A stretch of 64,000 nt of DNA from Puniceicoccaceae bacterium (GTDB taxonomy: Bacteria > Verrucomicrobiota > Verrucomicrobiia > Opitutales > JAFGAQ01). The stretch spans positions 1 to 64,000 of the forward strand of contig JANQOQ010000004.1 of NCBI GenBank assembly GCA_028285755.1, read 5' to 3'. Position numbers and translations under genes: made by a program. The notes beneath the pieces are model-generated. The model searched no databases. It was not told the origin of the DNA and worked only from the letters and a program-made list of their open reading frames with translations. Shown here one piece after another: positions 32,884 to 52,151 of the stretch; position 1 is the first letter of the stretch, and each line of letters opens with the position of its first letter.

Positions 32884-33073
32884 AGGCGATGCATATGAAC
32901 ATCTACAAGGCCAAAAATACGACATAGTAAAAACCTAAAAATGGAGTATGCCTATTTCAGAAGACATACATTATGGTTAACTCATATTACTCATTGAGTA
33001 AATCACAAGTAATTGAAGCCCATAATTAAGATAACCTGCAACTAAAGAATTAAGTGAGGTTAACAATAATTCA

Positions 33074-33124
33074 TTGGTGGAGCCGAACGGGATCGAACCG
33101 TCGACCTCTTCAATGCCATTGAAG
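33074..33124 (-). repeat. Left attachment repeat: 51-bp copy of the 3' part of tRNA-Ala(GGC)
   Basis: These 51 bases are identical to 52075-52125, which lies within the intact tRNA-Ala gene, and cover the anticodon arm through the encoded CCA. The match stops at 33125. The gene is incomplete here, since the acceptor 5' strand and D-arm are absent. This is the classic footprint of site-specific integration into a tRNA 3' end. Confidence 0.93.
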
Positions 33125-33194
33125 GATGTATGTTTTCCATAGCATTCATAGTAAGTATCTTACGAATTATTGCAAATAAGTATTTCTGGAAAAA

Positions 33195-33215
33195 TAATAC
33201 TAAATAATACTTTTT
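33195..33215. repeat. Island-end repeat, left copy
   Basis: TAATACTAAATAATACTTTTT differs by one base from 51944-51964. The copies lie about 70 and 110 bp inside the two attachment repeats, in the same orientation. Arm-type integrase or excisionase binding sites are a possible explanation. Confidence 0.45.
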
Positions 33216-33340
33216 GAAACTAAAATCGCTACTGCAGCAGTATACATGGTCTCATAAAATCTTAATTAAGTTGGGATACTCTATACTAGAATCGAATTAA
33301 AATTCCCAATGCCATAAAGCTTTCCACATTTAAATCTTAC

Positions 33341-33377
33341 AAAAAAGTAAGGCGCGGGTAAAACGTTCCCCGCGCCT
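33341..33377 (-). terminator. Rho-independent terminator after the polysaccharide lyase gene
   Basis: A 9-bp GC-rich stem (AGGCGCGGG at 33350-33358 with CCCGCGCCT at 33369-33377) is followed on the minus strand by TACTTTTTTG. It lies 36 bp after the lyase stop. Confidence 0.85.
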
Positions 33378-33412
33378 TTGTTAGGTAATCAGAATAAATT
33401 GCTGTTTCGTAT

Positions 33413-34582
33413 CTAGTTACCGATACATTCGAACTCGATAATTTCTACTCTTCCAGTCCCCGGAGGAGTCAAGAAGAGCCTGATCTTCGAGGTCGTTCTA
33501 TCTGTAAAATTCACCTCATTCCAGCCTGCACTATTTGCATTTGTATAATTAAAGGCATCTGCCCAGGCACTGCCTGTCCAATATTGAATCTTCCACTGTC
33601 CAATATGCCAATTTCCCGCATTATCTTCATTAACACGCGCACTCTTGATAGTCTTGTTGGCTCCGAAATCGTATTCCAACCAGGCGGGATTAGCAGTAGA
33701 ATTCGCTGCCCCCGAACTTGTGGAACCATCATGAACCCGAGAGATGTTACTCCACCCACCGCTGTTCGCATTAAAATTACCTGCGTTAATTAGATTTACG
33801 TCACCTCCAACATTCTGACCCGGATCTACCTCACTAAAGCTGGATGATGCATCGCCCACACGGATCTCGTCAAAATAGATTGCTCTAGGGCTTGCATCAG
33901 GATCCGGTAATGTATCTTTCTGATACCAGTTTGTCATATAGATTCCTACATCCATTCTAAGGTTTTTAGTTTGACTATCGAAGTAGTTCTTTCCCGTTTG
34001 ATTAAGCTCCTTAGTGCCATTGACCCAGACTTCAGATTTTGCGCTGCTGTCATCATCAAAGTGGATTTTCATTACAACTTCATACCACTGTCCTTTCGCA
34101 AGATTCGTGATCAAATTCGTTTCTACTTTCGTTGCTGAGTTTACAGGACCAAATTGTCGGGTAAATGTTAGTTTTTGGTCGTTGATTTTTACCCAGATAT
34201 TTGGCTTAAAGCCTTCGCTACCTCCATAGTCTGCGATGGTCTGGAAAAGCCACATGGATTCGGGTAAAAAATCGTGGTTCAGAGGTATATAGAACGCAAA
34301 ACCAAACCACCGAGTCGACCCGTTTCCGCCAATATTACTCTTAGTCTTCATGGCATGATATCGGCCATTATAACTTCCGTTAAATGTACACTTGGTGAAC
34401 ATCGAAGTTGTTCCTGCATATTGCTGTGCTGTCGAAGTTGCTACCTGACAATTTGAATTGATATTGCTACCTGACCAGGCGGTGGTGTCGTTTCCGGGGT
34501 TGTAGAAGATAACTCCCGCGTGAGCAGAAGAAGCGGCAGTAAGCGCCGCTGACATGACTATTATTATTTTGAGTATTTTCAT
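33413..34582 (-). CDS. Secreted polysaccharide lyase-like (PF14099 fold) with C-terminal F5/8C (CBM32-like) domain
   Basis: 389 aa with signal peptide (MKILKIIIVMSAALTAASSAHAG). Residues about 24-250 form a concanavalin-like jelly roll with features of the heparin-lyase-I/Polysacc_lyase group: RWFGFAFYIPLNHDF, WLFQTIADYGGSEGFKPNIW, KGQWYEVVMKIHFDDD, SEVWVNGTKE, MDVGIYMTNW and FDEIRVGD. Residues about 265-389 form an F5/8 type C sandwich (WLEYDFGANKTIKSARVNE, WKIQYWTGSAWADAF, KIRLFLTPPGTGRVEIIEF). It would cut a uronate-containing polymer at or outside the cell surface. The family is inferred from pattern, not an alignment. A LacI-type operator lies 66 bp upstream. Confidence 0.75.
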   Translation of the reverse strand: MKILKIIIVMSAALTAASSAHAGVIFYNPGNDTTAWSGSNINSNCQVATSTAQQYAGTTSMFTKCTFNGSYNGRYHAMKTKSNIGGNGSTRWFGFAFYIPLNHDFLPESMWLFQTIADYGGSEGFKPNIWVKINDQKLTFTRQFGPVNSATKVETNLITNLAKGQWYEVVMKIHFDDDSSAKSEVWVNGTKELNQTGKNYFDSQTKNLRMDVGIYMTNWYQKDTLPDPDASPRAIYFDEIRVGDASSSFSEVDPGQNVGGDVNLINAGNFNANSGGWSNISRVHDGSTSSGAANSTANPAWLEYDFGANKTIKSARVNEDNAGNWHIGQWKIQYWTGSAWADAFNYTNANSAGWNEVNFTDRTTSKIRLFLTPPGTGRVEIIEFECIGN

Positions 34583-34647
34583 CCTTATTTGTAGAGTTTG
34601 TATATTCTATACAAATTTGAATACTACTTAAAACAACCTCTAGTTAT

Positions 34648-34660
34648 TGTTAGTGTAACG
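34648..34660. promoter_or_regulatory. LacI-type operator upstream of the polysaccharide lyase gene
   Basis: TGTTAGTGTAACG fits the palindrome TGTTAnnnTAACA with one terminal deviation. It lies 66 bp upstream of the lyase start. One of seven such sites in the island. Confidence 0.7.
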
Positions 34661-34789
34661 ATGAGCTAAAAATGGATAATACAGTAATGTAAGCTTTACC
34701 TATTTGACATCAGCAGCAGACGAAATATCCACTGCCTGTGTTTAGACGCCTCAATATATACCAACTTAATTGAGATTACTCTTTGTGGG

Positions 34790-36706
34790 TTATTGGTTTA
34801 TAGAGTAGTGATCTATAATACCTGCGGATTTCTTAATGGATTGGTTTTGAGCAGCTAGATCCAGCGTAATCTTATCTTGCCCGTCGTTTTGGGATACATT
34901 ATCAATATTTATAATAATATTATCTTGAGTGCGGGGCAGATCAATGCTCTCACGTTCCAGTTTCTTGATTTTATTTTTGCTGCCACCATGGATTTTATAG
35001 AGAATAGTATTTGGCCCGAAATTCTCTAACACATTGCTCTCCACAGATGTGTACTCGTTTGCCTCATCAAGGTATATGCCATTTACGTTGTCTTTCCAAG
35101 AAGGGGTCACGTATGCACTGGCACGAATGTTTTTGACCCAATTACTATTTACCAGTATACCATTTTCCGGTGAATCAGGCACCCCAATCACGTAAATTCC
35201 TCCACCATCCGATAACAGTCGCATGACGTCATGCACATAGTTGTTACGAATAACATTATTACGAATTCCCAGGTAATAATACTCGTGGTGATTTCCTATC
35301 TGCATACCACTGTAAGGACCCCAGTAGATCTCGTTATGCTCGACGAGCAGATCTTCTACGACACTGGCGACAATGCCCATGCCGCTTCGATAATCTTGCC
35401 CGAAGTTAAAAATCTCATTATTCGCGACAATGTTTTTTGTACATTTGTCCACAAATTCGGGATGCATTTTCCGGGCAGGGTCTATATGGATTGCATTGGC
35501 AGCAATAATATGAAATCTTGAATTAATAATTGCACTATTCTTCACTCCCATGACAAACGACAAACCGTTAGCACCCACTTTCCGAAACTCACAATTGTCT
35601 ATAGTGACCTTATCCGCATAACTAATTTCCATAGCCGCCGTAGGCATATCTGCCATAATTTCCGGATACCCCCTTGGCTGAGATGCTTGTGTAGCAACCA
35701 CGCCTTCTTCAGATGCCTGCGTCCAATTGGTATATTGAAAAGTTAGGCCTGAGAATGTTAAATTGCGAATAGGTTGCTGAGCTTTGCCTTTAAGGATAAC
35801 TAATTTCTCGAGTCTAGGATATATGACCTCCACTGATTCCATGTTCTCCCCCTCTTTTGGAAAGTAGTATAAGCGATTTTCCTCGGTATCCAGAAACCAC
35901 TCCCCTGGAGTGTCCAAGAATACCAGTGCATTTTCAAGATGGTAAGCACCTCCATCCGCTTTTCGGGAAGTTGCCTGATTAAAGTAACGATCCCGTTCAG
36001 GTTGCTGAACGGTAATAAATGCATAGCGATCATAGGGATCATCAACTATCATGGACTCAGTTCGCAAATAGCTGTGATACCATGCTCCTTGGACAACAAT
36101 CTCCATTCTTTCAAAGCCTTCCCATTCACGAATATTGTGTGCAGAAATTCTGAGCCGTTTGTTGTCAAAATCATGAATAACTTCCTGATAATAGGGGCCA
36201 AAATCGATGGTATTTTCCTGATCTGGTTCACGGCAACGCACTGCTTTGTTCCCATCAATGTAGAGCTGCCTGAAAAGAGCTCCTGATTCTACTGCTGCCT
36301 CCCAAATACCGTTACCGTCTTTATCCGACCAATGAGTAACCTTTTGTGAGCTCTGAATGACCGGTTTTTCATTTTCATAAGCTCTCCAGATTACCGTACG
36401 ATTAACACCACCACCATCCTCAGCAGTAAACACCAAGGGGGTTTCAAGATTGTAAATGCCGCCTCTGAGATTAATTATGATATCTCCATCGATTTCATTT
36501 AAATGTGCACGTATTTGCTTTTTTGCATATCCCAGACTGTTCCAGGCGCTGTCAGTGTCTTTACCGCTAGCGTTATCATCGCCGCTAATCGGATCAATAA
36601 AAAATTCAGCTGCGTTTAGAGCTCCGATTAAATAAAAAAAACCGACTATAAATACTAGACTTTTGGGGACCAATACCATGCGAGGTAAAAAAATCTTATC
36701 ACTCAT
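34790..36706 (-). CDS. Secreted right-handed parallel beta-helix protein (GH141-like)
   Basis: 638 aa; signal peptide probably from Met10 (MVLVPKSLVFIVGFFYLIGA). FFIDPISGDDNASGKDTDSAW, INLRGGIYNLETPLVF, GGGVNRTVIWRAYENEKPVI and LFRQLYIDGNKAVRCREPDQ match the N-terminal block of GH141 and related beta-helix enzymes. Then come repeated right-handed coils: VTIDNCEFRKVGANGLSF, NSAIINSRFHIIAANAIHID, NIVANNEIFNFGQDYRSGMG and NNVIRNNYVHDVMRLLSDGGG. GH141 members act on fucose- or xylose-containing glycans, but polysaccharide lyases share the fold. It is divergent from the GPH symporter, with two LacI-type sites between the genes. Confidence 0.75.
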   Translation of the reverse strand: MSDKIFLPRMVLVPKSLVFIVGFFYLIGALNAAEFFIDPISGDDNASGKDTDSAWNSLGYAKKQIRAHLNEIDGDIIINLRGGIYNLETPLVFTAEDGGGVNRTVIWRAYENEKPVIQSSQKVTHWSDKDGNGIWEAAVESGALFRQLYIDGNKAVRCREPDQENTIDFGPYYQEVIHDFDNKRLRISAHNIREWEGFERMEIVVQGAWYHSYLRTESMIVDDPYDRYAFITVQQPERDRYFNQATSRKADGGAYHLENALVFLDTPGEWFLDTEENRLYYFPKEGENMESVEVIYPRLEKLVILKGKAQQPIRNLTFSGLTFQYTNWTQASEEGVVATQASQPRGYPEIMADMPTAAMEISYADKVTIDNCEFRKVGANGLSFVMGVKNSAIINSRFHIIAANAIHIDPARKMHPEFVDKCTKNIVANNEIFNFGQDYRSGMGIVASVVEDLLVEHNEIYWGPYSGMQIGNHHEYYYLGIRNNVIRNNYVHDVMRLLSDGGGIYVIGVPDSPENGILVNSNWVKNIRASAYVTPSWKDNVNGIYLDEANEYTSVESNVLENFGPNTILYKIHGGSKNKIKKLERESIDLPRTQDNIIINIDNVSQNDGQDKITLDLAAQNQSIKKSAGIIDHYSINQ

Positions 36707-36752
36707 AAATTATACAATAATGAATTTTGCTGAAACTTAAATCCAGTGGTAG

Positions 36753-36765
36753 TGTTAGCGTAACA
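36753..36765. promoter_or_regulatory. LacI-type operator in the beta-helix/GPH divergent promoter, first copy
   Basis: TGTTAGCGTAACA, a perfect match to TGTTAnnnTAACA, 47 bp upstream of the beta-helix gene start. Confidence 0.8.
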
Positions 36766-36794
36766 GCAGATTATCACATATGTATTACCTGAAT

Positions 36795-36807
36795 TGTTAC
36801 GTTATCA
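36795..36807. promoter_or_regulatory. LacI-type operator in the beta-helix/GPH divergent promoter, second copy
   Basis: TGTTACGTTATCA differs by one base from the copy at 44461. It is 29 bp from the first copy and 72 bp upstream of the GPH symporter start. Two sites on nearly adjacent DNA faces could permit cooperative binding. Confidence 0.65.
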
Positions 36808-36879
36808 TGTTTAGCAGTTTTCAAAAACATCCGACTTATTTCTAGATTTGAAGTGACCAAAGAGTTTTAATCTTAAGCA

Positions 36880-38307
36880 TTGCATGTGAGCGCTGAAAAA
36901 CAGAGCAAAAACGATTCTCCAAAACCAAAGTTTTTGGAAAAAGCTGCATTTGGCATGGGCACCTTCAATGAGCAAGGCGCGATGATGGTTTTTACCAAGC
37001 TGACTATGCCGGTTTACAACATAATTTTGGGTGTTAACCCAGCCTTGGTAGGATTGGTCCTCACAATAATGCGATTATGGGATGCAGTTACAGATCCGTT
37101 AATGGGCAATATCTCTGATAACACCCGTACGCGATGGGGGCGGCGCAGGCCATATATGCTTATTGGAGGCGTCATATGCGGACTCACTTTTCCACTTATG
37201 TGGATTGCTCCATTGGGTTGGTCTGAAAATACCTATTTCCTTTTCTTTTTGTGCACGGGACTTCTGTTTTTAACGGCCAATACCATATTTAGCGTTCCGT
37301 ATCTCTCTGTAGGATTGGAAATGACGCCCGATTATCATGAAAAAACACGTGTCTGGGCTTATCGGGGTTTTCTAATTCCTGTTATCGTAGTAATTGTTGA
37401 TTCAGTTTTCTACTTTGTCCAATCCGATTTCTTTGCAAGCACTCAGCAGGGCTTGCAGTTTTTTGCCTTTGGTTTCGGAGGGTTGATCCTGATAACTTCA
37501 ATATTACCGGCGCTATTAGTTAAAGAACGGTTTCAAACAGAAAGGCGTAAGCAAAATCGTGTCGATTTGTTTAAAAGCTTGAAAGTGATGTTTCAATATA
37601 GGGCATTTGTTATAATAGTTACGGTGATGGTATTGTTTGGGATTGCGAACAATACTTTCAATGTCCTGAGCATTTATTTGAAGTCGTATTATGTTTTTGG
37701 AGGAGATATTAAAGCAGGAGCGAAACTCACAATATATGTAAGTGCCGCTTATCAGATCATTCACCTATTGTCCGTCCCCGGAGTTACTTATTTATCGTCA
37801 AAAGTTGGTAAACGTCACGCATTACAGGTTTGCATGATACTAGGATGTATTGGAGCCACCTCCAAATTTTTTGTTTATAACCCTGATTACCCATTCTTAA
37901 TCATTGCAGCAGTGTTTTTCCTGGCACCTGCGATGGCAGGTTTTAACGTGCTGTTGAGTTCCTTATTGTCGGACGTTTGCGATTATGATGAATATAAGAC
38001 AGGTTATCGCCGTGAGGGGATGTTTGCCTCAGCCAATTTATGGCTCTATAAATTATCGTTTTCACTATCCGGCATATTGTCCGGGTTATTGTTATATTTC
38101 GTAGGATTTGATGAGTCACTGGGAGGCAATCAGAGTGATAGCACATTGTTCCAAATGCGCTTTTGGTTTGCAGCAGGACCCGCAATAACTGCGCTGGCGA
38201 GTTTTTTCCTAATCAGGAGTTTTCCTATCTCAGAAAAGAAGGCGGGAGAGATTCGAGAACATCTGGAAAAGAAAAAAGCCGAAAAGGACTCTGACGAAAA
38301 CTCATAA
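36880..38307 (+). CDS. GPH-family (MelB-like) sugar:cation symporter
   Basis: 475 aa membrane protein with about 12 helices. GVNPALVGLVLTIMRLWDAVTDPLMGNISD is shortened here to its key part RLWDAVTDPLMGNISD, followed by NTRTRWGRRRPYML, the glycoside-pentoside-hexuronide signature, with repeated family features later (LLSDVCDYDEYKTGYRREGM). It imports sugars or uronides with Na+ or H+. No ATG suits the frame: TTG at 36880 or GTG at 36886 must be used. It should bring products of the outer enzymes into the cell, where non-exported enzymes of the island can act. It faces the beta-helix gene and its end is 26 bp from the Gfo/Idh/MocA stop. Confidence 0.92.
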   Translation: MHVSAEKQSKNDSPKPKFLEKAAFGMGTFNEQGAMMVFTKLTMPVYNIILGVNPALVGLVLTIMRLWDAVTDPLMGNISDNTRTRWGRRRPYMLIGGVICGLTFPLMWIAPLGWSENTYFLFFLCTGLLFLTANTIFSVPYLSVGLEMTPDYHEKTRVWAYRGFLIPVIVVIVDSVFYFVQSDFFASTQQGLQFFAFGFGGLILITSILPALLVKERFQTERRKQNRVDLFKSLKVMFQYRAFVIIVTVMVLFGIANNTFNVLSIYLKSYYVFGGDIKAGAKLTIYVSAAYQIIHLLSVPGVTYLSSKVGKRHALQVCMILGCIGATSKFFVYNPDYPFLIIAAVFFLAPAMAGFNVLLSSLLSDVCDYDEYKTGYRREGMFASANLWLYKLSFSLSGILSGLLLYFVGFDESLGGNQSDSTLFQMRFWFAAGPAITALASFFLIRSFPISEKKAGEIREHLEKKKAEKDSDENS

Positions 38308-38332
38308 GCTGAATAAAGAACAACTAAAAGCT

Positions 38333-39346
38333 TTAATAGAGTAGCGCTTCTAATCGCTGTAGTGTTTCTACGGTTTTAAATCCTTCTTCGATACCTACGC
38401 TGGGTTTTACCGTATTTTTTATGCAATTGGCAGCTTCGGTCAGTATATTTCCCATTTCACCCACATGGTGAGAATAGCGTCCAAATGGAAAGTAGTGATC
38501 GATTGATGATGCATATTCCCTGTCCAGATTTTCATGAACATCAAAAACTGCGTGGTATCTCATCTCAGGATAAGTGGCAACCGAGTAACCATTTTCCCCT
38601 CGCAAAACACACTCTACGATTGAGGGTTCAGGCACGCTGTAATATCCCTTAACCAGCCCAAGTTGGCCTGATTGATTGTTAAGATTTACGAGGTAGTTGT
38701 CCGGGTAAGCGTTGCCTGTATTTATTATCGAGCTGGACGCATGGGAAATCAATGATAGTTCCTTGACATCGCCTAAATACCACAAGGCGATATCCATTGG
38801 GTGAATTAACCAAATATACAAGGGTGAAAAGCGACCCCACTTATCTGCAAGGTGCAGCATACGCGATCGTTTATCGTCGTTGTAAGAGGCCTCCACAGAG
38901 ATGAATTTGCCCAATTTCCCCGCTTGAAAGTCTGCATACTGATCCATCAGCGACGGGATGAAGCGGCTGGTATGCGCTGCAAAGAATAATTGATCCGGAT
39001 ACTTTAAGCAGGTCTTCTGAATCTTTTCTGCATCTTCGATACTCGATGCGATGGGTTTGGTAAGAATCACGTGCTTGCCTGCTTCAAGAGATGCTACTGC
39101 GTGTTCTGCATGAAGGTGATCTGGCGTGAAGATTGCCACTACATCTACATCTGGATTGTTCAATACATCGTCAATACTAGTCACAAGATCCGCATTGAGT
39201 TTGTATGCTTCTTTTCTCTCTTCGAGCAACTGTGAATTCAAATCACAAAGAGTAGTAACATTCCATTGCTTTGAACGGTGGGCTGCATGCAATGCACTTA
39301 GCCCCTCCTGAAGCCCGATAATGGCCAGGTTAATCGATTCGTTCAT
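38333..39346 (-). CDS. Gfo/Idh/MocA family oxidoreductase
   Basis: 337 aa, cytoplasmic. INLAIIGLQEGLSALHAAH begins the Rossmann fold, FTPDHLHAEHAVASLEAGKHV continues it, and the usual EKP motif reads TKP (ILTKPIASS), a known variant that keeps the lysine. The C-terminal domain includes PLYIWLIHPMDIALWYLGD with the family histidine and Asp. It probably oxidises or reduces a sugar derived from the island's polysaccharide. It is the last gene of the operon 43227 to 38333 and follows the sulfatase after 3 bp. Only distantly similar to the homologue at 921-1973. Confidence 0.87.
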   Translation of the reverse strand: MNESINLAIIGLQEGLSALHAAHRSKQWNVTTLCDLNSQLLEERKEAYKLNADLVTSIDDVLNNPDVDVVAIFTPDHLHAEHAVASLEAGKHVILTKPIASSIEDAEKIQKTCLKYPDQLFFAAHTSRFIPSLMDQYADFQAGKLGKFISVEASYNDDKRSRMLHLADKWGRFSPLYIWLIHPMDIALWYLGDVKELSLISHASSSIINTGNAYPDNYLVNLNNQSGQLGLVKGYYSVPEPSIVECVLRGENGYSVATYPEMRYHAVFDVHENLDREYASSIDHYFPFGRYSHHVGEMGNILTEAANCIKNTVKPSVGIEEGFKTVETLQRLEALLY

Positions 39347-39349
39347 GAA

Positions 39350-41011
39350 CTAATTATCTATCCTCTCAATCGTTAATTTTCTAAAACCCATATCCTCATT
39401 ACCATACTTAAATAGCTCAGGGACTTTATTTTTCATGACAATATGCAGGTCATATTGTCCTTTTTCCATAAACACTCTATCTATAACGATAGCTGTTGCT
39501 TCGGTATCTTCTATTGCTGCGAGTGCTTCTCTTCCTTTATAAGAAATACCCAATTTACCGTTTTCTGGATATAAATAGGGCTGGAATTCCAAAAAACTGA
39601 AACGATAATACCCAGTTGATTCTACCTGGATAGGATAGCCGCGGGTTTCGTGAAGTTTGGTATGATACAAAGTAATCACTTCTTGTTTCTCGGAACCCAC
39701 AATCGTATAGGCAGGTTCAAAGGGGCGTTCGCTCGTAACGTCCGCAAACCATTCTAGATAATCCCTCTTAAGCTTTTCAGCGATTACCAGGCTTTGCCCG
39801 TATATATTTCGCAGTTCACCCGGATCATCCTTAAGATCATATAGAGTGCCTGACTGATGCAACTTATGCGACCCTGATATAACAGTACTATTTACAAATA
39901 CTTCAGGCTTAGCTCTTCCGCTTAGCTGAATATATAAGTTACGAGGTTCCAGTGCCGTTCTTGCCTTAAGGAGATTATACAAGCTGACACCGTCGACCTT
40001 TTGATACTGTGGTTTAGTAATGCCGCAAATCTCAAGTATAGTTGGAAAAATGTCGATATGAGCCGCGTTTTCAGCGATACTACCAACTGGGAAATTCCCA
40101 TATCGAATAAAACAGGGTGATTTTATACCACCCTGTAGTGTCGTGCCCTTTCTACCACGATATCCATAATTATAGCGCATATTGTCACCAGGGAGATGAG
40201 CACCATTATCAGATATGTATATTACAACGGTATTCTCACGTATGCCCGCGTCATCAATCGCGGCCAGAACTGCGCCCACCGCGATGTCCAACTCTTGCAC
40301 CATCGCATATATTTCCTTAACCTCCTGACTTAATTCCTGAAAGCGATGAAAAGGCTCCACACTACTGTCAGGTACTTGCTTTCGGAAGTGGGTGTGCGGC
40401 TGATAAAACGGGATATACGCAAAAAAGGAGTGATTACTATTTTTGTTGATAAATTCCACCGCTTTATCGGCTATGATATGAGGCAGAAACCCCTCGTATT
40501 TGGAAGTTTCGCCATTTTCGAGCATACTAGGATTCATTCTCTCAAGACCGTCCCAGGTAAAGCTATATTCAAAGCCCTGATCTTGTGCCCGGAATGGATA
40601 ATTTGTGCCCAAATGCCATTTACCGAAGTGGGCTGTTTTATAGCCATGGTTACTTAAGACTTCGGCAATCGTGATCTCGTCTGGGTGCATCATATCGCGG
40701 CCTTTCCAGGTATCCCATACGCCTGTACGTTGGTTATAGCGACCGGTTAACAGGCTCGCGCGAGTAGGTGAACACTTAGGGCTTACATAAAAATTTCGGA
40801 GCCGCGTACTCTCCTCAGCCAACCGGTCTAGATTTTGCGTATTTAAATATGGATTTCCATAATAACTAAAGTCTCCATACCCCTGGTCATCACTGACAAT
40901 CAGCACTATATTTGGTGACTTCCCGGGCGCACCAGACAATAAGCTAGCATGGCCACAAACTAAAAGCGCAAAAATCAGTAGTATCAATATGTGTGTATGC
41001 ATCATTTTCAT
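39350..41011 (-). CDS. Secreted S1 arylsulfatase
   Basis: 553 aa with signal peptide (MKMMHTHILILLIFALLVCGHASLLSG). NIVLIVSDDQGYGDFSYYG holds the metal-binding Asp pair; KCSPTRASLLTGRYNQRTGV holds C-x-P-T-R with Cys80 as predicted formylglycine (Thr replaces the more common Ser); HFGKWHLG is the second signature; VVIYISDNGAH the late metal site. About 120 extra C-terminal residues after the sulfatase fold (YRFSFLEFQPYLYP, KGQYDLHIVMKNK) form a beta-sandwich-like addition. It removes sulfate from the same polymer attacked by the lyase and beta-helix enzyme, and belongs to the operon starting at 43227. Confidence 0.92.
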   Translation of the reverse strand: MKMMHTHILILLIFALLVCGHASLLSGAPGKSPNIVLIVSDDQGYGDFSYYGNPYLNTQNLDRLAEESTRLRNFYVSPKCSPTRASLLTGRYNQRTGVWDTWKGRDMMHPDEITIAEVLSNHGYKTAHFGKWHLGTNYPFRAQDQGFEYSFTWDGLERMNPSMLENGETSKYEGFLPHIIADKAVEFINKNSNHSFFAYIPFYQPHTHFRKQVPDSSVEPFHRFQELSQEVKEIYAMVQELDIAVGAVLAAIDDAGIRENTVVIYISDNGAHLPGDNMRYNYGYRGRKGTTLQGGIKSPCFIRYGNFPVGSIAENAAHIDIFPTILEICGITKPQYQKVDGVSLYNLLKARTALEPRNLYIQLSGRAKPEVFVNSTVISGSHKLHQSGTLYDLKDDPGELRNIYGQSLVIAEKLKRDYLEWFADVTSERPFEPAYTIVGSEKQEVITLYHTKLHETRGYPIQVESTGYYRFSFLEFQPYLYPENGKLGISYKGREALAAIEDTEATAIVIDRVFMEKGQYDLHIVMKNKVPELFKYGNEDMGFRKLTIERIDN

Positions 41012-41031
41012 ATCATAAATAACAATCTAAA

Positions 41032-43227: not shown

Positions 43228-43289
43228 CGTAATGAAGTAGTCTGAGGTCTATTATCGATGCCTATCTATCTAGTTCTATCCTTATGCAA

Positions 43290-43302
43290 TGTTAGGGTAA
43301 CA
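43290..43302. promoter_or_regulatory. LacI-type operator upstream of the toroid-protein operon
   Basis: TGTTAGGGTAACA, a perfect TGTTAnnnTAACA palindrome, 63 bp upstream of the 731-residue protein gene that leads a three-gene operon. Confidence 0.8.
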
Positions 43303-43337
43303 TTCCTCTTAAACTAAAGCACTTAGACCACCCAAAT

Positions 43338-44414: not shown

Positions 44415-44460
44415 ATATTAAATAGAATATCCGAGTAGCGTCCACTCCAAAAACTCAAAA

Positions 44461-44473
44461 TGTTACGTTAACA
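44461..44473. promoter_or_regulatory. LacI-type operator upstream of lacI
   Basis: TGTTACGTTAACA lies 47 bp upstream of the longest lacI start (71 bp from Met9) and after the receptor gene stop. It points to autoregulation. Confidence 0.8.
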
Positions 44474-44517
44474 CAAATTCCAAAAGCTGCTCATTTCTTC
44501 TCGTTTACCTGCAAAAG

Positions 44518-44547
44518 AAAAAAGACCTCTGCAACAATACAGAGGCC
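44518..44547 (-). terminator. Rho-independent terminator after the island TonB receptor
   Basis: GACCTCTG and CAGAGGCC pair around an 8-base loop; on the minus strand the stem is followed by TTTTTTCTTTTG. It lies 27 bp after the receptor stop at 44574. Confidence 0.85.
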
Positions 44548-44573
44548 CCTTTAATGCTTTCTTACAATTAATT

Positions 44574-47500
44574 CTAGAAGGTGAAAGTATTTCTTATAAT
44601 GATGGATTTCTGGGGGGCTAGGCGGTAGTGAGCGATACTGCCATCTGGCTGTGCGCTAATGGGGATCACATCGTCACCACTATGATAGATATTGCGGAAA
44701 TTGACTTGTATTCTCCAGTCAACTTTATCGTCCATAATCATGCGTGAATAGCTAAGCCATAAATCACCATTGATTTGAGAGTCATCAAAGTATGGATTTT
44801 GCGTATCGAAAACAACACCCGTTACTTCATCCTCTTTGAGTGGGAAACCAATGGCTCCCTCATCCTGGTAGCGTAGGGCGCCACCAATCCCGAAACCACT
44901 GAACCTACCTTCAACAAAGGTGTAATTTGTGATGAGGTTTGCCCGCCATTCGCGCTGCTCCTCCACCACAGCTCCATTTTGATCCTGCAGTGCCTGGAAT
45001 GGGATGTATATACTTGTTGTATAACGTTGGTCTACCGTATTATCAAAATATGGATTTGAAGGATCATCCACACCGAGGGCAAACGTTTCGAGATCGTAAA
45101 AACCGGTTACCGGATCAGCGATGTTCGTAGTGTTTGTAATACCCGGAGTGAATTGTAGCAAGGAAGGCCCATTGGGTAATGCACGGTTGGCCTCCCATAC
45201 GGGGCGGCGGATGCTCAGGTATTCAGCTACACCCGGAGCATTGTTGCTGATCACGGTTTCCTGACGCGCAATATTCAGCAAAACTCTCCAGTTTGGCAAC
45301 GGATTGTAGATCAAGTCAATCTCGACACCCTCGGCAGTGGTGTCAGTTGTGTCTGCCAAGGTTGTAGGCACGGTTGTGTCCCAATTCGTATCCAAGGTCG
45401 GTGGAATTGCATTAAATTGATCAATTACCTCCTGAGGTGGGGTTCCCCAGCTGTCCGACACATTGGTGCCAGGTGCAAAATTACCATTACGGTCTGATTG
45501 CCAGTAGACGCTTGCGTCAAAGAAATCGATGCCGATAGCACTACTTAGCAGACCGGTAGCATCAGGAAGAGTCTGGTTAGTGAAATTGCTCTCGTACCAG
45601 TTGACGCGCATGTTGAACTTGTCATCAAAGAGACTAACGGTAAACCCATAGTCTTCTGTGGTCCCTTCTGGCGCGCTAATGGTTCGCCCAAAAGCATCTT
45701 CACGCAAGCCAACCGGGTTAAAGTTGCTGGATTTGTTATAATGTACGCTTAAGCCTGAATTAAAGGGCAACTGGATACTATCCGGCAGGTGACCAACTAC
45801 ACTATATGTGCGTGTTTCACCACTACCCTCCAATTGTGCGCTATCCGGCAACACCATTTGATTGATCAGACGGATTTGTTCATCATCTACGGGTGCAGAG
45901 GCATTTGAAAACTCAAACTCATCTCTCCGCCAGCCAAACAAGGTTACAATATGACCATCAAAGAAACTACTGTTTAAACTGACCGCATAAGAATCTACAA
46001 TATCCTCACTAAGACTGCCTGATGTAGCGACTTCTGAAACCGTCAACGTGCGATCCCGGAAACGCTGTACATCCTTATCCCACAGGACTGCATTGACTTG
46101 TTCACCCTGGCTGTAGCGTGGGTTTACGCTGAGCCTTGAAATGCTGACTTGATCCAATGTCGAAGCAGCAGGCCCCAGATAAATTGCACGCGATGCTGAA
46201 CGATTGGCATCTCCATCTGGACGACGGCTCGTACTATTCTGCGCACCATTCGCAAGGAAGCGGTCAACATCGCCACCAAAGTAGTGCTGTCTGAACCCAT
46301 TTTGCACTTCATCTCTTTCCTGCTTATTAGCAAATGCGGTAATCGTGTGATCACCCAGTATGCTCCCCCACTTGGAATCTAACATCTCTTCGAAATCGAA
46401 GGTGTAGAAAGCAGTCGCTCTGATTGCGAAACGCTCAATCTCCCTGGTCGATCTTTCAGATCCCGGAGTCAGATAAACAGGACGCAAGATATTGGGGTTA
46501 CTGATCCAGGTGCCGTCGTCCAGGGCAATAGGATAGCTAACATTCGGATCTACCTGGATGGCATGGTAGATAGACTGGTGCAACTGACCATTCACATTTT
46601 CAGTTTCCCAATTCTGGAAATCAATGCCCACTTCCACACCAAAGTTCCCATCATCGTTCAAATACTCCAGGGTGGCATTATAGGTGTGAAAATCTGCAAA
46701 TTGCCGAGCCGCATCACCCGAAAGCAGGTTATTTTCCCAATCAAAGAGTGAAAAATCGGATAGACTGTAAAAGCGCTCCTGGGTTGCAACACTGGCAGGT
46801 CGATAGCGACGTTCATTCAGCGTACTGGTCCAACGAATAGTACTGCGAAAAATATTTGCCTCATTCCTGTCTATATTATTTGCGACAAAAGTGCCAATCA
46901 TTGCTCCGCGATTATTCAGTCCTGGAGCTACCTGACCATTATTATCTGTGAAATTGACCACCTGACGATTGTGCCTGGGTGAGGGGAAGTTGACCGCACG
47001 CACCAGATCATCCGTCACTGGCTGAGCACCCGGTATCGGCAGCGTATAAGTCACTGAATAGCGCGGTAAAGTGCCTGCGGGTCTTGGAAAGTCAGGCGGA
47101 AAGTTACCCGTCCAGTTGGGCACCGGCATAGTCCCTAAACCTCCCTGAGATGCGCCGATACGATACCACTGCGAAAAATTGTCCAGTGGAGCCACCGGAT
47201 TCGGTCGGTTGGCGTCTATGGAGCCAAACTCGGTATTGGCTCGGAGTGTGAGATTCTTACTAATCTTATAAGTGGCAGTCAGATAAAGCCGCTGATCCTC
47301 TTCAAAAGCAGGCTCTTGCTGAAACTTTTCATCCTCCCATAAACCGGCTACCCGAATGCCCAGCTTATCTTCAACGATCTCTTTGTCGACATCCAGAGTT
47401 ACCCGAAAACTACCGTGATCATCAAAACGGACAGATACTTCGTTCCGGTTGCTGAAAAGTGCAGTCAATGTAGTATTATTCACAATGCCTGCAGGACTGC

Positions 47501-48086
47501 CTAAACCGAATAACAGTGAATTCGCACCGCGAACTATATCCAGACGCTCCGTATTATAGTCGTCAAAAGGAATCTCGGTTAGGTAAAAATTGCGTGTGAC
47601 ATCAGCTGCAGCCAAACCGCGGACGCGTGTCTGCCCGGTAAAGTTCAGCACATTACTGGCACCTGAAGAAGACGGTGCCCCTAAAAAACCGAAACCTTGC
47701 TGTAAGGTGGTAGACGAGAAGTTACCAAACACACCTGCCGACTCAGTGTTCCCTGTGTAGATAAACAGCTCATCCAGATTAGTTGCCGCAGTGTCCTCCA
47801 TGAACTCCTCGGTAACTACTGTAATAGAAGCACCTACATCTCTTAGTTCGGTATTGAGGCGCGTGCCTGCCAGTGTGGAGTTGGCCTGGTATCCGATATC
47901 TTCACCCGTCTCGATGACAAAGGGGGACATAAGAAATATGTTATCATCTTCACCTTGGTCGTCCTGGCCAAAAGCTACATGAAAACCTAAAAACAGAGTA
48001 GTGCCAGCAAAGAAATTGAGGCTGGACTGCCTAAGCAAATGGTAGCATTTGCGCTTCAGATTCATATAAACAGATCTGCAATTCAT
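44574..48086 (-). CDS. TonB-dependent receptor of the island, very large
   Basis: 1170 aa, near the top of the normal size range. Signal peptide probably from Met8 (MNLKRKCYHLLRQSSLNFFAGTTL, cleavage near AFGQD). The N-terminal segment DDNIFLMSPFVIETGEDIGY resembles that of the receptor at 10808-12967. The plug domain includes LRDVGASITVVTEEFMEDT, QTRVRGLAAADVTRNFYL and RLDIVRGANSLLFGLGSPAG. The barrel ends in KSIIIRNTFTF with terminal Phe. It is expected to import the oligosaccharides made by the secreted enzymes of the island. It is divergent from the LamG/DUF1961 gene with two LacI-type sites in between. Confidence 0.9.
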   Translation of the reverse strand: MNCRSVYMNLKRKCYHLLRQSSLNFFAGTTLFLGFHVAFGQDDQGEDDNIFLMSPFVIETGEDIGYQANSTLAGTRLNTELRDVGASITVVTEEFMEDTAATNLDELFIYTGNTESAGVFGNFSSTTLQQGFGFLGAPSSSGASNVLNFTGQTRVRGLAAADVTRNFYLTEIPFDDYNTERLDIVRGANSLLFGLGSPAGIVNNTTLTALFSNRNEVSVRFDDHGSFRVTLDVDKEIVEDKLGIRVAGLWEDEKFQQEPAFEEDQRLYLTATYKISKNLTLRANTEFGSIDANRPNPVAPLDNFSQWYRIGASQGGLGTMPVPNWTGNFPPDFPRPAGTLPRYSVTYTLPIPGAQPVTDDLVRAVNFPSPRHNRQVVNFTDNNGQVAPGLNNRGAMIGTFVANNIDRNEANIFRSTIRWTSTLNERRYRPASVATQERFYSLSDFSLFDWENNLLSGDAARQFADFHTYNATLEYLNDDGNFGVEVGIDFQNWETENVNGQLHQSIYHAIQVDPNVSYPIALDDGTWISNPNILRPVYLTPGSERSTREIERFAIRATAFYTFDFEEMLDSKWGSILGDHTITAFANKQERDEVQNGFRQHYFGGDVDRFLANGAQNSTSRRPDGDANRSASRAIYLGPAASTLDQVSISRLSVNPRYSQGEQVNAVLWDKDVQRFRDRTLTVSEVATSGSLSEDIVDSYAVSLNSSFFDGHIVTLFGWRRDEFEFSNASAPVDDEQIRLINQMVLPDSAQLEGSGETRTYSVVGHLPDSIQLPFNSGLSVHYNKSSNFNPVGLREDAFGRTISAPEGTTEDYGFTVSLFDDKFNMRVNWYESNFTNQTLPDATGLLSSAIGIDFFDASVYWQSDRNGNFAPGTNVSDSWGTPPQEVIDQFNAIPPTLDTNWDTTVPTTLADTTDTTAEGVEIDLIYNPLPNWRVLLNIARQETVISNNAPGVAEYLSIRRPVWEANRALPNGPSLLQFTPGITNTTNIADPVTGFYDLETFALGVDDPSNPYFDNTVDQRYTTSIYIPFQALQDQNGAVVEEQREWRANLITNYTFVEGRFSGFGIGGALRYQDEGAIGFPLKEDEVTGVVFDTQNPYFDDSQINGDLWLSYSRMIMDDKVDWRIQVNFRNIYHSGDDVIPISAQPDGSIAHYRLAPQKSIIIRNTFTF

Positions 48087-48240
48087 TTTTATAAGTAATT
48101 AGAGTTATGACAAAAACTATATTCGCACAATCTTGCGGTAATTGAATACACTACGGGGCATGCAAACATTGGTATGTCTATAATTTTGGGTTCATGGTGG
48201 AGCTAATCCTAGGGATGGGAATCTTACAACGCGAACACCA

Positions 48241-48253
48241 TGTTAACGTATCA
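48241..48253. promoter_or_regulatory. LacI-type operator in the receptor/DUF1961 divergent promoter, first copy
   Basis: TGTTAACGTATCA; its reverse complement TGATACGTTAACA differs by one base from the lacI-proximal site. It lies 155 bp upstream of the receptor start. The 330-bp spacer 48087-48417 holds this and the next site and no gene. Confidence 0.6.
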
Positions 48254-48325
48254 AAAATTCAGATAGTCTGACTAAATTTTAAACAACAAATTGCTGGTAC
48301 AATTTCATTTAGCTCCAAGAAGGAA

Positions 48326-48338
48326 TGTTACACTAACA
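48326..48338. promoter_or_regulatory. LacI-type operator in the receptor/DUF1961 divergent promoter, second copy
   Basis: TGTTACACTAACA, a match to TGTTAnnnTAACA, 79 bp upstream of the DUF1961 gene. Confidence 0.75.
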
Positions 48339-48417
48339 AGCGGTGGTTCTTGGATCAGATATAATACTAAAGTAGCTAAATTGCAGAGGTAATTACTACC
48401 CAAAAGTATATCATGTA

Positions 48418-49872
48418 ATGAGCAATAAACATTCAGCTAAGAAGACTTACTTTTCTTCAAAAGACGATTTTCATGATGGAGAAATCCAAGGGTGCTTTCG
48501 TAAAATTAGTGTGGCTGGCGGAGTTGGCTTGGTCGCTGGCTCCATGCAGGCGAAGCTAGAACTCGGTCACGTGCAACTGTACGCTTCCAAAGGATCGCTC
48601 GTTTTCTGGCTACTGCCTCTGGAAACTCTTGCCACTGCAGCCCAACGTCCCGACTACGCGGATCATCTCCCAAATCCATCTGCCTATATCTTATTAAGCG
48701 ACACTCAAAATCGTGAGCACTTGGCAAACGGTCGCTTTAAACTCGTATGGGATTCTGACTGGTATCCGCAAATGTATTTTAGAATGGATCGGGGACTGGG
48801 TCATCTACCTGTGGGTGAACAATGGACGACAGGCGTCGCACTGACTAACCATTTTACCTTAGAAGAACATAAGTGGTATTGTTTTGCGGCAGTATGGGAT
48901 AGAGACGCAGGATATTATGCCCTCTATGCAAATGGGATGAAAATTGCTCAAAATAATGCCTTCCCCGACCCTTCAGGCGCATTAAGAGCCCCCGGAGAAC
49001 AAATCGATACATTATACGCCGGGCATACTTGCTTTGCGATGGGAGACTTCCTTTGCTACGAGGAGGCTTTGAGTGTGGAAGTCTTACGCGAAGTATTTGC
49101 TTTAACGAAAAATGACAGAGTGATAGCTCCCACCCACTTATTCGAGAAGACGCCCTTTCAGTTTTTCCCCGATGACCAATGGCAGCAAAAATGGTCAATC
49201 GCACTGAACCAGGATAAAGATTTGGACAACTTTTACATACAGGGGAATACCCAGGCCCCATCAATAACGCCAGAAGGCCTTTTGATCGAAACACCCGTCA
49301 TCGACCAACCGATGCGCTACTACGAAGAGGATGACCTTAACCAGCTTTACCTCTGGAGTAGAGAACCTTTTGAGGGAGATATCTACGTAAAATTTGAATT
49401 TATGCCGCTACAACGCGGTGGTTTAAGCCTAATTTGTCTGCAGGCAAGCGGCATGCAGCGTGAGGATTTCATGCAGGAGTATCCGCTACGTACAACAGGT
49501 AGTATGCGCATGATTCACCTGGAAGATGTCCGTAGTTATCATTGGGAATTTTATCGCGAAATGAATGATTGTAGGAATGACGGCGCATCTCATGGTCTGT
49601 TCAAGAACCCATGGCTTTGCCCACTTGCTTTCGTCTGCGAAGAGGAACTCTATTCACTAAATACATGGCATGTTTTGGAATTTTTACAGCAGGGGCCGGA
49701 ACTAAGCGGAGCAGTAGATGGCAAACAAATATTTAATGTCCTGGATTCGGCTACCACGAACAATGGTCCGATTCTGAACTTTGGTCGCTTTGCATTACGC
49801 TGTATGATTCGCAGCAAACTGTTGTATCGCAATCTGGAAATATGGAACCGACCCAACTTTTCCGAGCTTTGA
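48418..49872 (+). CDS. Cytoplasmic two-domain protein: LamG-like jelly roll plus DUF1961-like domain
   Basis: 484 aa without signal peptide (MSNKHSAKKTYFSSKDDFHD). Residues about 20-235 look like a concanavalin/LamG sandwich (GSLVFWLLPLETLATAA, HKWYCFAAVWDRDAGYYALY, NGMKIAQNN, GDFLCYEEALSVEVL). Residues about 250-480 resemble DUF1961: YHWEFYREMNDCRNDGASHG, NTWHVLEFLQQGPELSGAVDG, NNGPILNFGRFALRCMI, YRNLEIWNRP. The biochemical role of DUF1961 is not known to me; it recurs in polysaccharide loci and a jelly-roll fold could be a lyase or hydrolase. It forms a two-gene unit with the BNR_4 gene 19 bp downstream and is under two LacI-type sites. Confidence 0.7.
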   Translation: MSNKHSAKKTYFSSKDDFHDGEIQGCFRKISVAGGVGLVAGSMQAKLELGHVQLYASKGSLVFWLLPLETLATAAQRPDYADHLPNPSAYILLSDTQNREHLANGRFKLVWDSDWYPQMYFRMDRGLGHLPVGEQWTTGVALTNHFTLEEHKWYCFAAVWDRDAGYYALYANGMKIAQNNAFPDPSGALRAPGEQIDTLYAGHTCFAMGDFLCYEEALSVEVLREVFALTKNDRVIAPTHLFEKTPFQFFPDDQWQQKWSIALNQDKDLDNFYIQGNTQAPSITPEGLLIETPVIDQPMRYYEEDDLNQLYLWSREPFEGDIYVKFEFMPLQRGGLSLICLQASGMQREDFMQEYPLRTTGSMRMIHLEDVRSYHWEFYREMNDCRNDGASHGLFKNPWLCPLAFVCEEELYSLNTWHVLEFLQQGPELSGAVDGKQIFNVLDSATTNNGPILNFGRFALRCMIRSKLLYRNLEIWNRPNFSEL

Positions 49873-49891
49873 ACTATAAATAGATAGCAAG

Positions 49892-51139
49892 ATGCAAAAT
49901 ACAGGATTAGAGGGATACCGCCGACTGCTTATAGCGGATTGTGGTTGCGATCGTGCAACCGCATACACCATGAATAATAAGTTAGTCAGGAAAGGTGATC
50001 TGCTTTTTTGCACCTGGTTGGACAACAATTTTATTTCCCACATCACAGTAGTCGATACCCGTAAGTTGAGTATCATTGTAGATAAGCCTATTGCTCAAGG
50101 GCTTGATAACCATTGTGGAACTACTCTGGAAATCGATACACAAGGCAGTATCCACGCGATTACAGGAGGCCATCACAGCCCGATGCAGTACTCTGTATGG
50201 CGCATGGAGAATACGTCATTAGTATGTATGGATCATCAGTTTTTATGGCACGGTACTTATCCTTCCATGATATGCAGTTCTGATGGAAAACTACATCTCG
50301 CATACAGACTCGAAGCAGATCACTGGGAAATACGCCTAGGCTCGAAGAAGCCTCAAGGCGATTGGCATTCAAGGGGTGCGGTAATCCGTTCTTCAATATC
50401 CGGCTACCAATTCTTTACAAATACCATTGCACAATGCCCGACCAAGCCAGGCGATCTATACCTAGGCTTCGCTTACTATCTTAAAGGTCGAGCTAAGCAC
50501 AGGAAATATTTACCCGCTTTGCTAGAAATTCACGAAAATGATGAATATATTACACTAGAAACGGATACCCTGAAGGCGCTATCAACTCCATTTTGCTTTG
50601 CCGAACTTGATGAAGGTAATTTTAAAGAAAAAGGACCCGCGCATATATCATACCGCCAACATATACTGTCAAATCTTAGTATAAACAAAACCGGTCAGGT
50701 AGCCGTTGTGATTCATGACACCAGTCGCGGCTCTGCAATGATCGGTATAAGACATTCAAATAAAACCATAAATTGGATATCATTGAATTTGAAGAAACTT
50801 TGTGAGCTTGAAGATTCCATAATAGGGCCATCGTCCGCCCTCCACCTCGCTGATACTGGCCAAATGACCATCTGCATCCAGATACATCCGACCAGCGAAG
50901 TACCAATAATGGGAAACCCAAACTCACAGTTACTGATTTTGGTTTTGGATGCTTCAGGCAACCCGATAAGCCACGAATTTATGACTGCCGAAAAGCCAAA
51001 TATCGCTTGGTTACCTTCGATTGAAAGACACCATTTCTCACAAAATCCCGCAATCCTCTACACCGAAGGCATCAACCTGGGAGGATTTGATAATAATATA
51101 AATCGTACAATTACTAATCACGTTTGGTTGTATTTATAA
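49892..51139 (+). CDS. BNR_4-type seven-bladed propeller, putative intracellular lyase or glycosidase
   Basis: 415 aa without signal peptide. KGDLLFCTWLDNNFISHITVVD, GLDNHCGTTLEIDTQGSIHA, GGHHSPMQYSVWR, GTYPSMICSSDGKLHLAYR and NTIAQCPTKPGDLYLGFAYY are blade motifs of the BNR_4 group (PF15892). That group includes PL24/PL25-type ulvan lyases and related proteins, in which the paired histidines of a GGHHS-like loop are near the active site. It is the second gene of the unit led by the DUF1961 gene. A cytoplasmic enzyme finishing imported oligosaccharides is likely. The substrate, possibly a sulfated uronate-containing polymer such as ulvan, is inference. Confidence 0.72.
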   Translation: MQNTGLEGYRRLLIADCGCDRATAYTMNNKLVRKGDLLFCTWLDNNFISHITVVDTRKLSIIVDKPIAQGLDNHCGTTLEIDTQGSIHAITGGHHSPMQYSVWRMENTSLVCMDHQFLWHGTYPSMICSSDGKLHLAYRLEADHWEIRLGSKKPQGDWHSRGAVIRSSISGYQFFTNTIAQCPTKPGDLYLGFAYYLKGRAKHRKYLPALLEIHENDEYITLETDTLKALSTPFCFAELDEGNFKEKGPAHISYRQHILSNLSINKTGQVAVVIHDTSRGSAMIGIRHSNKTINWISLNLKKLCELEDSIIGPSSALHLADTGQMTICIQIHPTSEVPIMGNPNSQLLILVLDASGNPISHEFMTAEKPNIAWLPSIERHHFSQNPAILYTEGINLGGFDNNINRTITNHVWLYL

Positions 51140-51510
51140 ATTCATGTAGTTTCTGTAAATACATACAACTTCAACATCTGTAATCCTGCCTTTTTTTTAT
51201 CTCGATTATCATATCATATTTTTATGCACCTATCGCTTAGAGCGTGTTGCATTTGAGCTGCTGGGATCAAACCATTTTACCATAAAGCGTCTACTTGCTT
51301 CTCATAGAAGCTAACAATTGCAATATACAGAGACTGTTTGCTCTATTTTATTATCACATATAGCATTCGATGAAGCCGCGAGATGACACTTTTTGTCCCG
51401 TGCAAATCGTAAGTCGTTGATCATCAGGCACCGCTATTTGAACCCGACTACCTAGGGATATCACATACCAGGCAGTATTTGTTTCTGTGTAGGTTGCCGA
51501 TTAGTATCCT
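51140..51510. other. Non-coding stretch near the right end of the island
   Basis: No gene is supported. A fragment at about 51255-51280 (GCTGCTGGGATCAAACCA) resembles, with a few changes, the T-arm part of the tRNA-like hairpin at 17101. Otherwise the stretch is AT-rich and shows no clear terminator for the BNR_4 gene. Confidence 0.5.
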
Positions 51511-51936
51511 TTAATCGAGCCGCATTTGCTTCATTTTCTTTTTTCTCAATCGCATCATCAACTCTTCTCGATTCGACTGGAACTCGGAAATCAAGTGGTA
51601 ATACTTGCCATTGAAATCGTCTACAAGTTGCTCGAATGATTTCACGCTTTCTTCGGATTCGCTGAATTGCTGCATCATTTTCTCTAAAGAATCCAAGGAT
51701 TGTTTCACATCGAGATCTAATTGTTTGAACTGTTTTTCCGAGTTTTCCAAAAAAACTTGAAATCGAGTATCTCGATGATCTTCGTTCTGTGTGATTTGAG
51801 ATAGCTGATTCACTAGCCGACAAATTCTGGTTGCCATTTTTGCTTTCGTCCCGGTTTGGGTGTTTTCGGAGTCAGTATTTTGGAGACCTTCATAACGAGT
51901 CCCCCCTTCGCCCGGTATTCGTACAATAATGTACAA
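51511..51936 (-). CDS. Small hypothetical coiled-coil protein near the attachment site
   Basis: 141 codons at most; Met34 (MATRICRLVNQLSQITQ, start at 51837) is an alternative giving 108 aa. The second half is acidic and helical with heptad-like leucines (QFKQLDLDVKQSLDSLEKMM, SVKSFEQLVDDFNGKYYHL) and ends in a basic patch (MRLRKKKMKQMRLD), as in a coiled coil. A different frame has the good ribosome-binding site AAGGGGGG before an ATG at about 51894 and reads MKVSKILTPKTPKPGRKQKW, then stops after 26 codons. A frameshift near 51815 may therefore have split one gene. I recognise no family. It lies about 140 bp inside the island's right end. Confidence 0.4.
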   Translation of the reverse strand: MYIIVRIPGEGGTRYEGLQNTDSENTQTGTKAKMATRICRLVNQLSQITQNEDHRDTRFQVFLENSEKQFKQLDLDVKQSLDSLEKMMQQFSESEESVKSFEQLVDDFNGKYYHLISEFQSNREELMMRLRKKKMKQMRLD

Positions 51937-51943
51937 TAAAAAG

Positions 51944-51964
51944 TAATACTAGATAATACTTTTT
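51944..51964. repeat. Island-end repeat, right copy
   Basis: TAATACTAGATAATACTTTTT, one mismatch to 33195-33215 and in the same orientation, just inside the right attachment repeat. Confidence 0.45.
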
Positions 51965-52074
51965 TCGGGTAATTCTGTCCCAATGAAATGAGATTGAATC
52001 TCGAAAATAAAAATTCTCGCTTCGCTCGGATTTTGGTAAGTCACACGCTATAAGTGACTTGTGCTGGTTAGCGG

Positions 52075-52125
52075 TTGGTGGAGCCGAACGGGATCGAACC
52101 GTCGACCTCTTCAATGCCATTGAAG
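52075..52125 (-). repeat. Right attachment repeat within tRNA-Ala(GGC)
   Basis: These 51 bases match 33074-33124 exactly and form the 3' part of the intact tRNA gene, from the anticodon stem to the encoded CCA plus one base. Confidence 0.93.
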
Positions 52126-52151
52126 CGCTCTTCCAACTGAGCTACGGCCCC
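52076..52151 (-). tRNA. tRNA-Ala (anticodon GGC)
   Basis: A 76-base gene on the minus strand. The acceptor strands GGGGCCG and CGGCTCC pair with one G-T. The D-arm GTAGCTCAGTTGGAAGAGC is typical. The anticodon arm is CTTCA-ATGGCAT-TGAAG, with anticodon GGC. The T-arm is GACGG-TTCGATC-CCGTT. Discriminator A and an encoded CCA follow. It is the integration site of the island and remains intact because the island restored its 3' end. Confidence 0.97.

Follow-up and report, generated by a model that had tools for sequence, protein, structure and literature searches.

An integrase-less polysaccharide-utilisation island between tRNA-Ala(GGC) and a copy of its 3' half in a Puniceicoccaceae bacterium

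Genes and features of the locus

The window analysed here comprises the first 64,000 nucleotides of contig JANQOQ010000004.1 of a Puniceicoccaceae bacterium (assembly GCA_028285755.1; Verrucomicrobiota, Opitutales). The genome amounts to 4.25 Mb in 15 contigs, and the contig that carries the island measures 388 kb. Ten large open reading frames (ORFs) occupy positions 33413-51139, between an intact tRNA gene and a second copy of its 3' half:

32560-32930 (limits approximate), + strand: frameshifted remnant of an SDF (sodium:dicarboxylate symporter) gene, just outside the far att copy
33074-33124, - strand: far-end att core of 51 bp, a displaced 3' half of tRNA-Ala, exact repeat
33190-33215, + strand: 26-bp candidate arm-type integrase site of the far end, AAAAATAATACTAAATAATACTTTTT, 24/26 identical to 51939-51964
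33413-34582, - strand: secreted polysaccharide lyase (PF14099) with F5/8-type carbohydrate-binding domain; closest solved relative glucuronan lyase A (PL20)
34790-36706, - strand: GH141-type beta-helix glycoside hydrolase, relative of BT_1002
36880-38307, + strand: GPH-family sugar:cation symporter (MFS_2)
38333-39346, - strand: Gfo/Idh/MocA oxidoreductase
39350-41011, - strand: S1 sulfatase (active-site motif CSPTR); carrageenan sulfatases are its nearest solved relatives
41032-43227, - strand: 731-aa protein with a predicted (alpha/alpha)-toroid plus beta-sandwich polysaccharide-lyase fold, without Pfam or PDB sequence match
43338-44414, - strand: LacI-family regulator
44574-48086, - strand: TonB-dependent receptor with plug domain, 1170 aa
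48418-49872, + strand: DUF1961/YesU-like protein
49892-51139, + strand: BNR_4-like protein (weak match)
51514-51837, - strand: 108-aa orphan ORF of uncertain coding status, between cargo and tRNA
51939-51964, + strand: 26-bp candidate arm-type integrase site of the tRNA end, AAAAGTAATACTAGATAATACTTTTT, 24/26 identical to 33190-33215
52075-52125, - strand: 51-bp att core inside the intact tRNA (from the anticodon stem to one base past CCA), exact repeat
52076-52151, - strand: intact tRNA-Ala(GGC), the integration target (ARAGORN); its 3' half serves as the att copy on the island side

The ten large genes are all consistent with a single glycan system. Receptor/transporter, CAZymes, sulfatase and regulator are co-located, as in polysaccharide-utilisation loci (PULs) in the wider sense, and they are clustered in Pelagicoccus too (see below). 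A TonB-dependent receptor is present, and no SusD family match was found in the island, which thus lacks the SusC/SusD pair of the Bacteroidota type. Because two lyase-type enzymes are encoded together with a sulfatase, the substrate, as judged from gene content, is probably a sulfated uronic-acid polymer. The first-pass annotation had credited the locus with its own receptor, symporter, sulfatase, degrading enzymes and regulator, an inventory that is broadly borne out (TonB, GPH, S1, PL20-like, GH141 and LacI). It had also called the system self-regulated: a LacI-type gene does lie inside, but no repeated LacI operator was found in the island, and self-regulation may at most be surmised from the gene.

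The 731-aa protein was modelled with a pLDDT of 88.9 as an (alpha/alpha) toroid followed by beta sandwiches. Foldseek matched the model best with alginate and chondroitin lyases (E values of 2e-11 and higher), and in VIA-align hyaluronate, chondroitin and xanthan lyases cover most of the chain (Z about 20, 570-583 residues aligned, rmsd near 4.7). In view of the model fold and these matches, the protein is probably a lyase. Of 373 Opitutales genomes, 10 have its gene, and all four from the same family lack it. More widely, the protein family is represented at at least 80 loci, in Paenibacillus, Spirochaetota, Planctomycetota, Verrucomicrobiota, Clostridia, Armatimonadota and others, and on the strength of the predicted fold it is a candidate for an unnamed polysaccharide-lyase family.

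From the last cargo gene to the tRNA it is 0.9 kb, a stretch with a single ORF, that of 108 aa, which has no relatives among the 373 genomes. It was considered as an excisionase or an integrase remnant and set aside, since apart from weak, coiled-coil-like phage matches no relatives were found.

The tRNA target and the ends of the island

ARAGORN calls a single tRNA in the 64-kb window, tRNA-Ala(GGC), and none at 33074-33124. The two 51-bp copies are exact, have the same orientation and lie 19,001 bp apart, which confirms the repeat reported in the first-pass annotation. Each consists of the 50-bp 3' half of the tRNA, from the first base of the anticodon stem onward, plus one base past CCA. 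Since the repeat thus spans the anticodon stem to beyond CCA, the left copy is a displaced tRNA 3' half, and a chance origin of the exact 51-bp match is out of the question. As is characteristic of a tRNA integration site, the tRNA is intact, its 3' end being restored by the element-borne core. A whole-genome BLAST search recovered one complete tRNA-Ala(GGC), one 51-bp fragment and two weaker partial copies, on contigs C2 and C15. When the last 25 nt of the tRNA were compared with 373 Opitutales genomes, two copies less than 900 kb apart on one contig were found in this genome only; the same search with 23 nt added one genome, G041, with three copies.

Comparison of the inner ends revealed a 26-bp repeat, one copy inside each end and in the same orientation, composed of two tandem 10-mers ending in TAATACT. 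Across the whole genome the motif occurs without mismatch at these two places only. Its ungapped match score of 20 compares with at most 14 in 10,000 random 150-bp pairs; among AT-rich random pairs 1 in 10,000 scored above 20, at 101, a value suggestive of either a true repeat or loci that overlap. In the attP of lambda-type integrases, arm-type sites flank the core. In a circular form of the island both motif copies would likewise flank the core, and their position makes them candidate arm-type sites. The motif therefore supports site-specific integration independently of the 51-bp repeat, and it may help to identify the recombinase of the island.

Beyond the ends, the surroundings of the tRNA vary. 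The tRNA-Ala neighbourhoods of G002, G003 and G004 have no genes in common with the window flanks, and the family members examined show no synteny here, their tRNA-Ala lying in other surroundings. This flank comparison, aimed at an empty site, covered 87 relatives and used the tRNA-proximal flank gene, the tRNA and, within the family, the left flank gene; with the flanks differing in this way, it yielded neither a readable empty site nor a second occupied one. A degenerate att-like tRNA-Ala fragment lies at the very start of contig C15 (C15:168-197), and it has bases just beyond the core in common with the far att copy of the window. The SDF pseudogene by the far copy and this att-like remnant hint at older events.

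Absence of mobility genes

A Pfam survey of all large ORFs detected no integrase, relaxase, coupling protein, type IV secretion system (T4SS) or transfer domain in the island. A genome search with PF00589 gave no match within 33 kb-52 kb, all 13 integrase-family matches of the genome lie on other contigs, and tblastn with 14 integrases, distant tRNA-site ones included, found no relative or remnant in the island; a very divergent recombinase could escape such searches, as Pfam missed the one in G033. No integrase-bearing relative of this island was found. An integrase of its own, which marks an autonomous island (MGI, IME or ICE) or a tycheposon, is thus lacking, and the assignment that matches is that of a CIME-like element, not of a self-moving cassette: attL and attR are retained (51-bp repeat and inner motifs), and genes for recombination and for conjugation or mobilisation are absent. 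The integrase may have been lost, or it may never have been carried. The first-pass annotation had envisaged a PUL cassette delivered to a tRNA site; site-specific insertion and coherent PUL cargo uphold this picture, but without integrase, relaxase or transfer gene the cassette does not move by itself.

Related cargo and composition

The nearest homologue of the 731-aa protein is encoded by Pelagicoccus sp. IP29b_bin.57 (JANQRJ010000034.1), a metagenome-assembled genome (MAG) of another family. A stretch of about 31 kb there encodes homologues of eight or nine of the island proteins, with identities of 63% for the polysaccharide lyase, 60% for Gfo/Idh, 56% for DUF1961, 53% for the 731-aa protein, 42% for the sulfatase, 37% for LacI, 36% for GPH and 26% for GH141. 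The flanks and the gene order differ from those of the island. On the 43-kb Pelagicoccus contig no tRNA and no visible att site were found; the PUL is therefore not tied to tRNA sites. A scan of the genome contigs with the TonB receptor returned no relatives, and a search for the PUL on plasmids gave weak partial archaeal matches only.

The island has a G+C content of 43.4%, and both its G+C and its tetranucleotide content are ordinary for this genome. A foreign origin was looked for by composition with a negative result, as the island is not distinct from the genome. Such a composition is in keeping with a donor from this same order, or with an insertion that is old.

Parallel islands at tRNA genes

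Two further tRNA genes of this genome, tRNA-Leu(GAG) on C2 and tRNA-Leu(CAG) on C3, each have an integrase gene within 100 bp after them; both integrases are 428 aa long, and they are 70% identical to each other. The last 23 nt of tRNA-Leu(GAG) recur 59.5 kb away and the last 20 nt of tRNA-Leu(CAG) 26 kb away. Just before the far copies the two islands have 118 bp in common (88% identity), and they are therefore sister elements with different cargo:

C2:997031-1056633: 59.5-kb tRNA-Leu(GAG) island; besides an integrase of its own it carries TonB receptors, GH2, three sulfatases and a DUF1080 protein
C3:163551-189600: 26-kb tRNA-Leu(CAG) island with the sister integrase; far-end sequence as in the tRNA-Leu(GAG) island

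Two more integrase loci deserve mention. At C2:225879-227130 a 348-aa integrase lies beside an isolated tRNA-Ala(GGC)-like 3' half with the 13-bp repeat GATAAGTGCGCAC on both sides, an attP-like arrangement away from any tRNA. At C15:926578-927910 an integrase ORF reaches the edge of tRNA-Val(GAC); no far copy of this tRNA was found in the 76 kb examined.

The closest parallel at tRNA-Ala comes from G041 (Verrucomicrobiia 5_bin.45, Opitutales), where the gene of a divergent tyrosine recombinase comes after tRNA-Ala(GGC). Copies of the 24-nt tRNA 3' end lie in the same orientation at contig positions 124587, 139715 and 167798, and each is preceded by 65-93 bp of related sequence, 84-89% alike. 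As the far ends are conserved, the three units form one tandem array:

C54:90836-167823: three islands in tandem at tRNA-Ala(GGC), with a single integrase

The first, tRNA-proximal island contains the sole integrase of the array and a TraG/TraD-like gene. The second carries sugar-acid-type genes and the third is PUL-like (GPH symporter, GH43, GH2, sulfatases and Gfo/Idh), both without an integrase. The tRNA-Ala flanks of G041 are not shared by its congeners. In G033 a tRNA-Ala fragment lies beside an integrase relative. In G021 (C51:38268-39878) a partial tRNA-Ala copy (91% over 45 bp) and the intact tRNA-Ala lie 1.5 kb apart, separated by a single 395-aa ORF.

Origin of the island

Very probably, the segment 33125-52074 together with one att core constitutes a CIME-like PUL that was inserted at tRNA-Ala(GGC) by site-specific recombination and that is missing its integrase. 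The insertion by site-specific recombination is well supported, and the event itself would have left the ends described above. A circular molecule bearing the tRNA-Ala(GGC) 3' half between arm-type sites (attP) would have recombined with the resident tRNA gene (attB); the crossover would have restored the intact tRNA at 52076-52151 and left the 3'-half copy at 33074. Since genes for integrase, relaxase and transfer are all missing from the present island, any further movement would depend on an integrase in trans or on accretion with a second element at this tRNA.

The integrase might never have been on board. A non-autonomous passenger, whose att sites are recognised by a helper integrase in trans in a satellite-like manner, would account for two ends that look intact though no integrase remnant is left, and the two integrase-less islands of G041 do share their far ends with the integrase-bearing one. 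This genome also offers the C2 integrase beside its tRNA-Ala(GGC)-like 3' half with a 13-bp repeat on either side. Those repeats differ from the island motif, however, and the C2 core is only 84% identical, so that this integrase is an unlikely and by no means obvious helper; as no helper with the motif of the island was found in this genome, we regard the passenger scenario as unlikely. Somewhat less likely still is descent by deletion from a larger tandem array at tRNA-Ala, in which the fragment at 33074 would have closed an older element and the integrase-bearing neighbour at the tRNA would have been lost. The G041 array, with the integrase in its tRNA-proximal unit, illustrates such a starting point, and the decayed symporter gene that borders the far att copy on its outer side as well as the further att-like remnant at the start of C15 would suit this history, but the 26-bp motif pairs both present ends as those of one element.

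The same motifs, lying just inside both att copies, weigh against the two explanations that do without a site-specific insertion of the PUL. That the PUL is ancestral or arrived by ordinary homologous recombination, and the tRNA fragment 19 kb off is an unrelated older scar, would agree with a composition that is not foreign and with a related Pelagicoccus PUL outside a tRNA site; yet the 731-aa marker gene is absent from four of four same-family genomes and a single system only lies between the att copies, which renders this account improbable. A misjoin of contigs at the repeated 51 bp is scarcely credible: exact repeats are the classical places for such artefacts, but 51 bp are short compared with most read lengths, the contig extends over 388 kb in a 15-contig assembly, and the inner motifs would not result from a misjoin.

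Implications for the spread of PULs

Marine Verrucomicrobiota are rich in sulfatase and CAZyme loci, whose movement between lineages is poorly documented. The CIME-like PUL described here is delimited as a unit and keeps both scars of recombination; cargo akin to its own occurs in another family, and it has parallels at tRNA-Leu and tRNA-Ala. Because similar blocks are found at tRNA genes in this genome and in a relative, sets of sugar-eating genes in marine Opitutales appear to travel through tRNA sites, and by analogy the parallel islands suggest a common route for PULs in this order. The spread among marine Verrucomicrobiota that the first-pass annotation had proposed thus gains indirect support, from the Pelagicoccus PUL, the scattered occurrence of the 731-aa gene and the PUL-like tRNA islands. 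Quite tentatively, one may go further and picture Opitutales PULs as integrase-less cassettes with conserved ends that stack at tRNA genes and are moved by neighbouring or co-resident integrases, a satellite-like form of PUL swapping. The delimited unit and its parallels turn the general notion that PULs spread by horizontal gene transfer into a testable statement on named sites and integrases. Island finders that rely on an integrase would miss loci of this type.

Comparison with known systems

In the open-access literature searched we found no paper joining tRNA genomic islands of Verrucomicrobiota with integrase and sulfatase, and none linking PULs, tRNA sites and tyrosine recombinase together. 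Several described systems nevertheless share part of this arrangement. Tycheposons are tRNA-targeted cargo islands of Prochlorococcus that carry a tyrosine recombinase. The island is like them in its tRNA target, its flexible metabolic cargo and the lack of conjugation genes, but it does not possess such a recombinase. The term tycheposon has also been applied to Methylophilaceae (PMC10872708).

Whole glycan-utilisation loci carried by integrated elements are known from gut Bacteroides, where PULs reside on integrative conjugative elements, such as the porphyran PUL cited in PMC5849685, and 47 SusC/D PULs have been assigned to gut mobile elements (PMC6907783). The gut Bacteroides elements are described with integrase or conjugation genes of their own, whereas the island has neither these nor SusD and resides in Opitutales. 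Within the same phylum, marine Verrucomicrobiota isolates are mentioned in PMC8857213 as harbouring fucoidan genes on megaplasmids; here, too, glycan genes are located on a horizontally acquired replicon or element, a plasmid in their case and an integration at a tRNA gene in ours.

The closest counterparts are the CIMEs of streptococci, for which accretion at a shared 3' target has been described (PMC5704250, PMC7563491), and in CIME arrays the integrase-less units are furthest from the target gene (PMC7563491). The array of G041 matches this description, as both are tandem and in both the integrase-bearing element adjoins the target gene. The island itself resembles streptococcal CIMEs in being flanked on either side by att sites, in lacking genes for integrase and transfer and in its adaptive cargo, a likeness read here from sequence; it differs in phylum, in its PUL cargo and in being a solo copy in the window. 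The CIME-like kind of island is thus already known, and the PUL cargo at an Opitutales tRNA-Ala is a new member of it.
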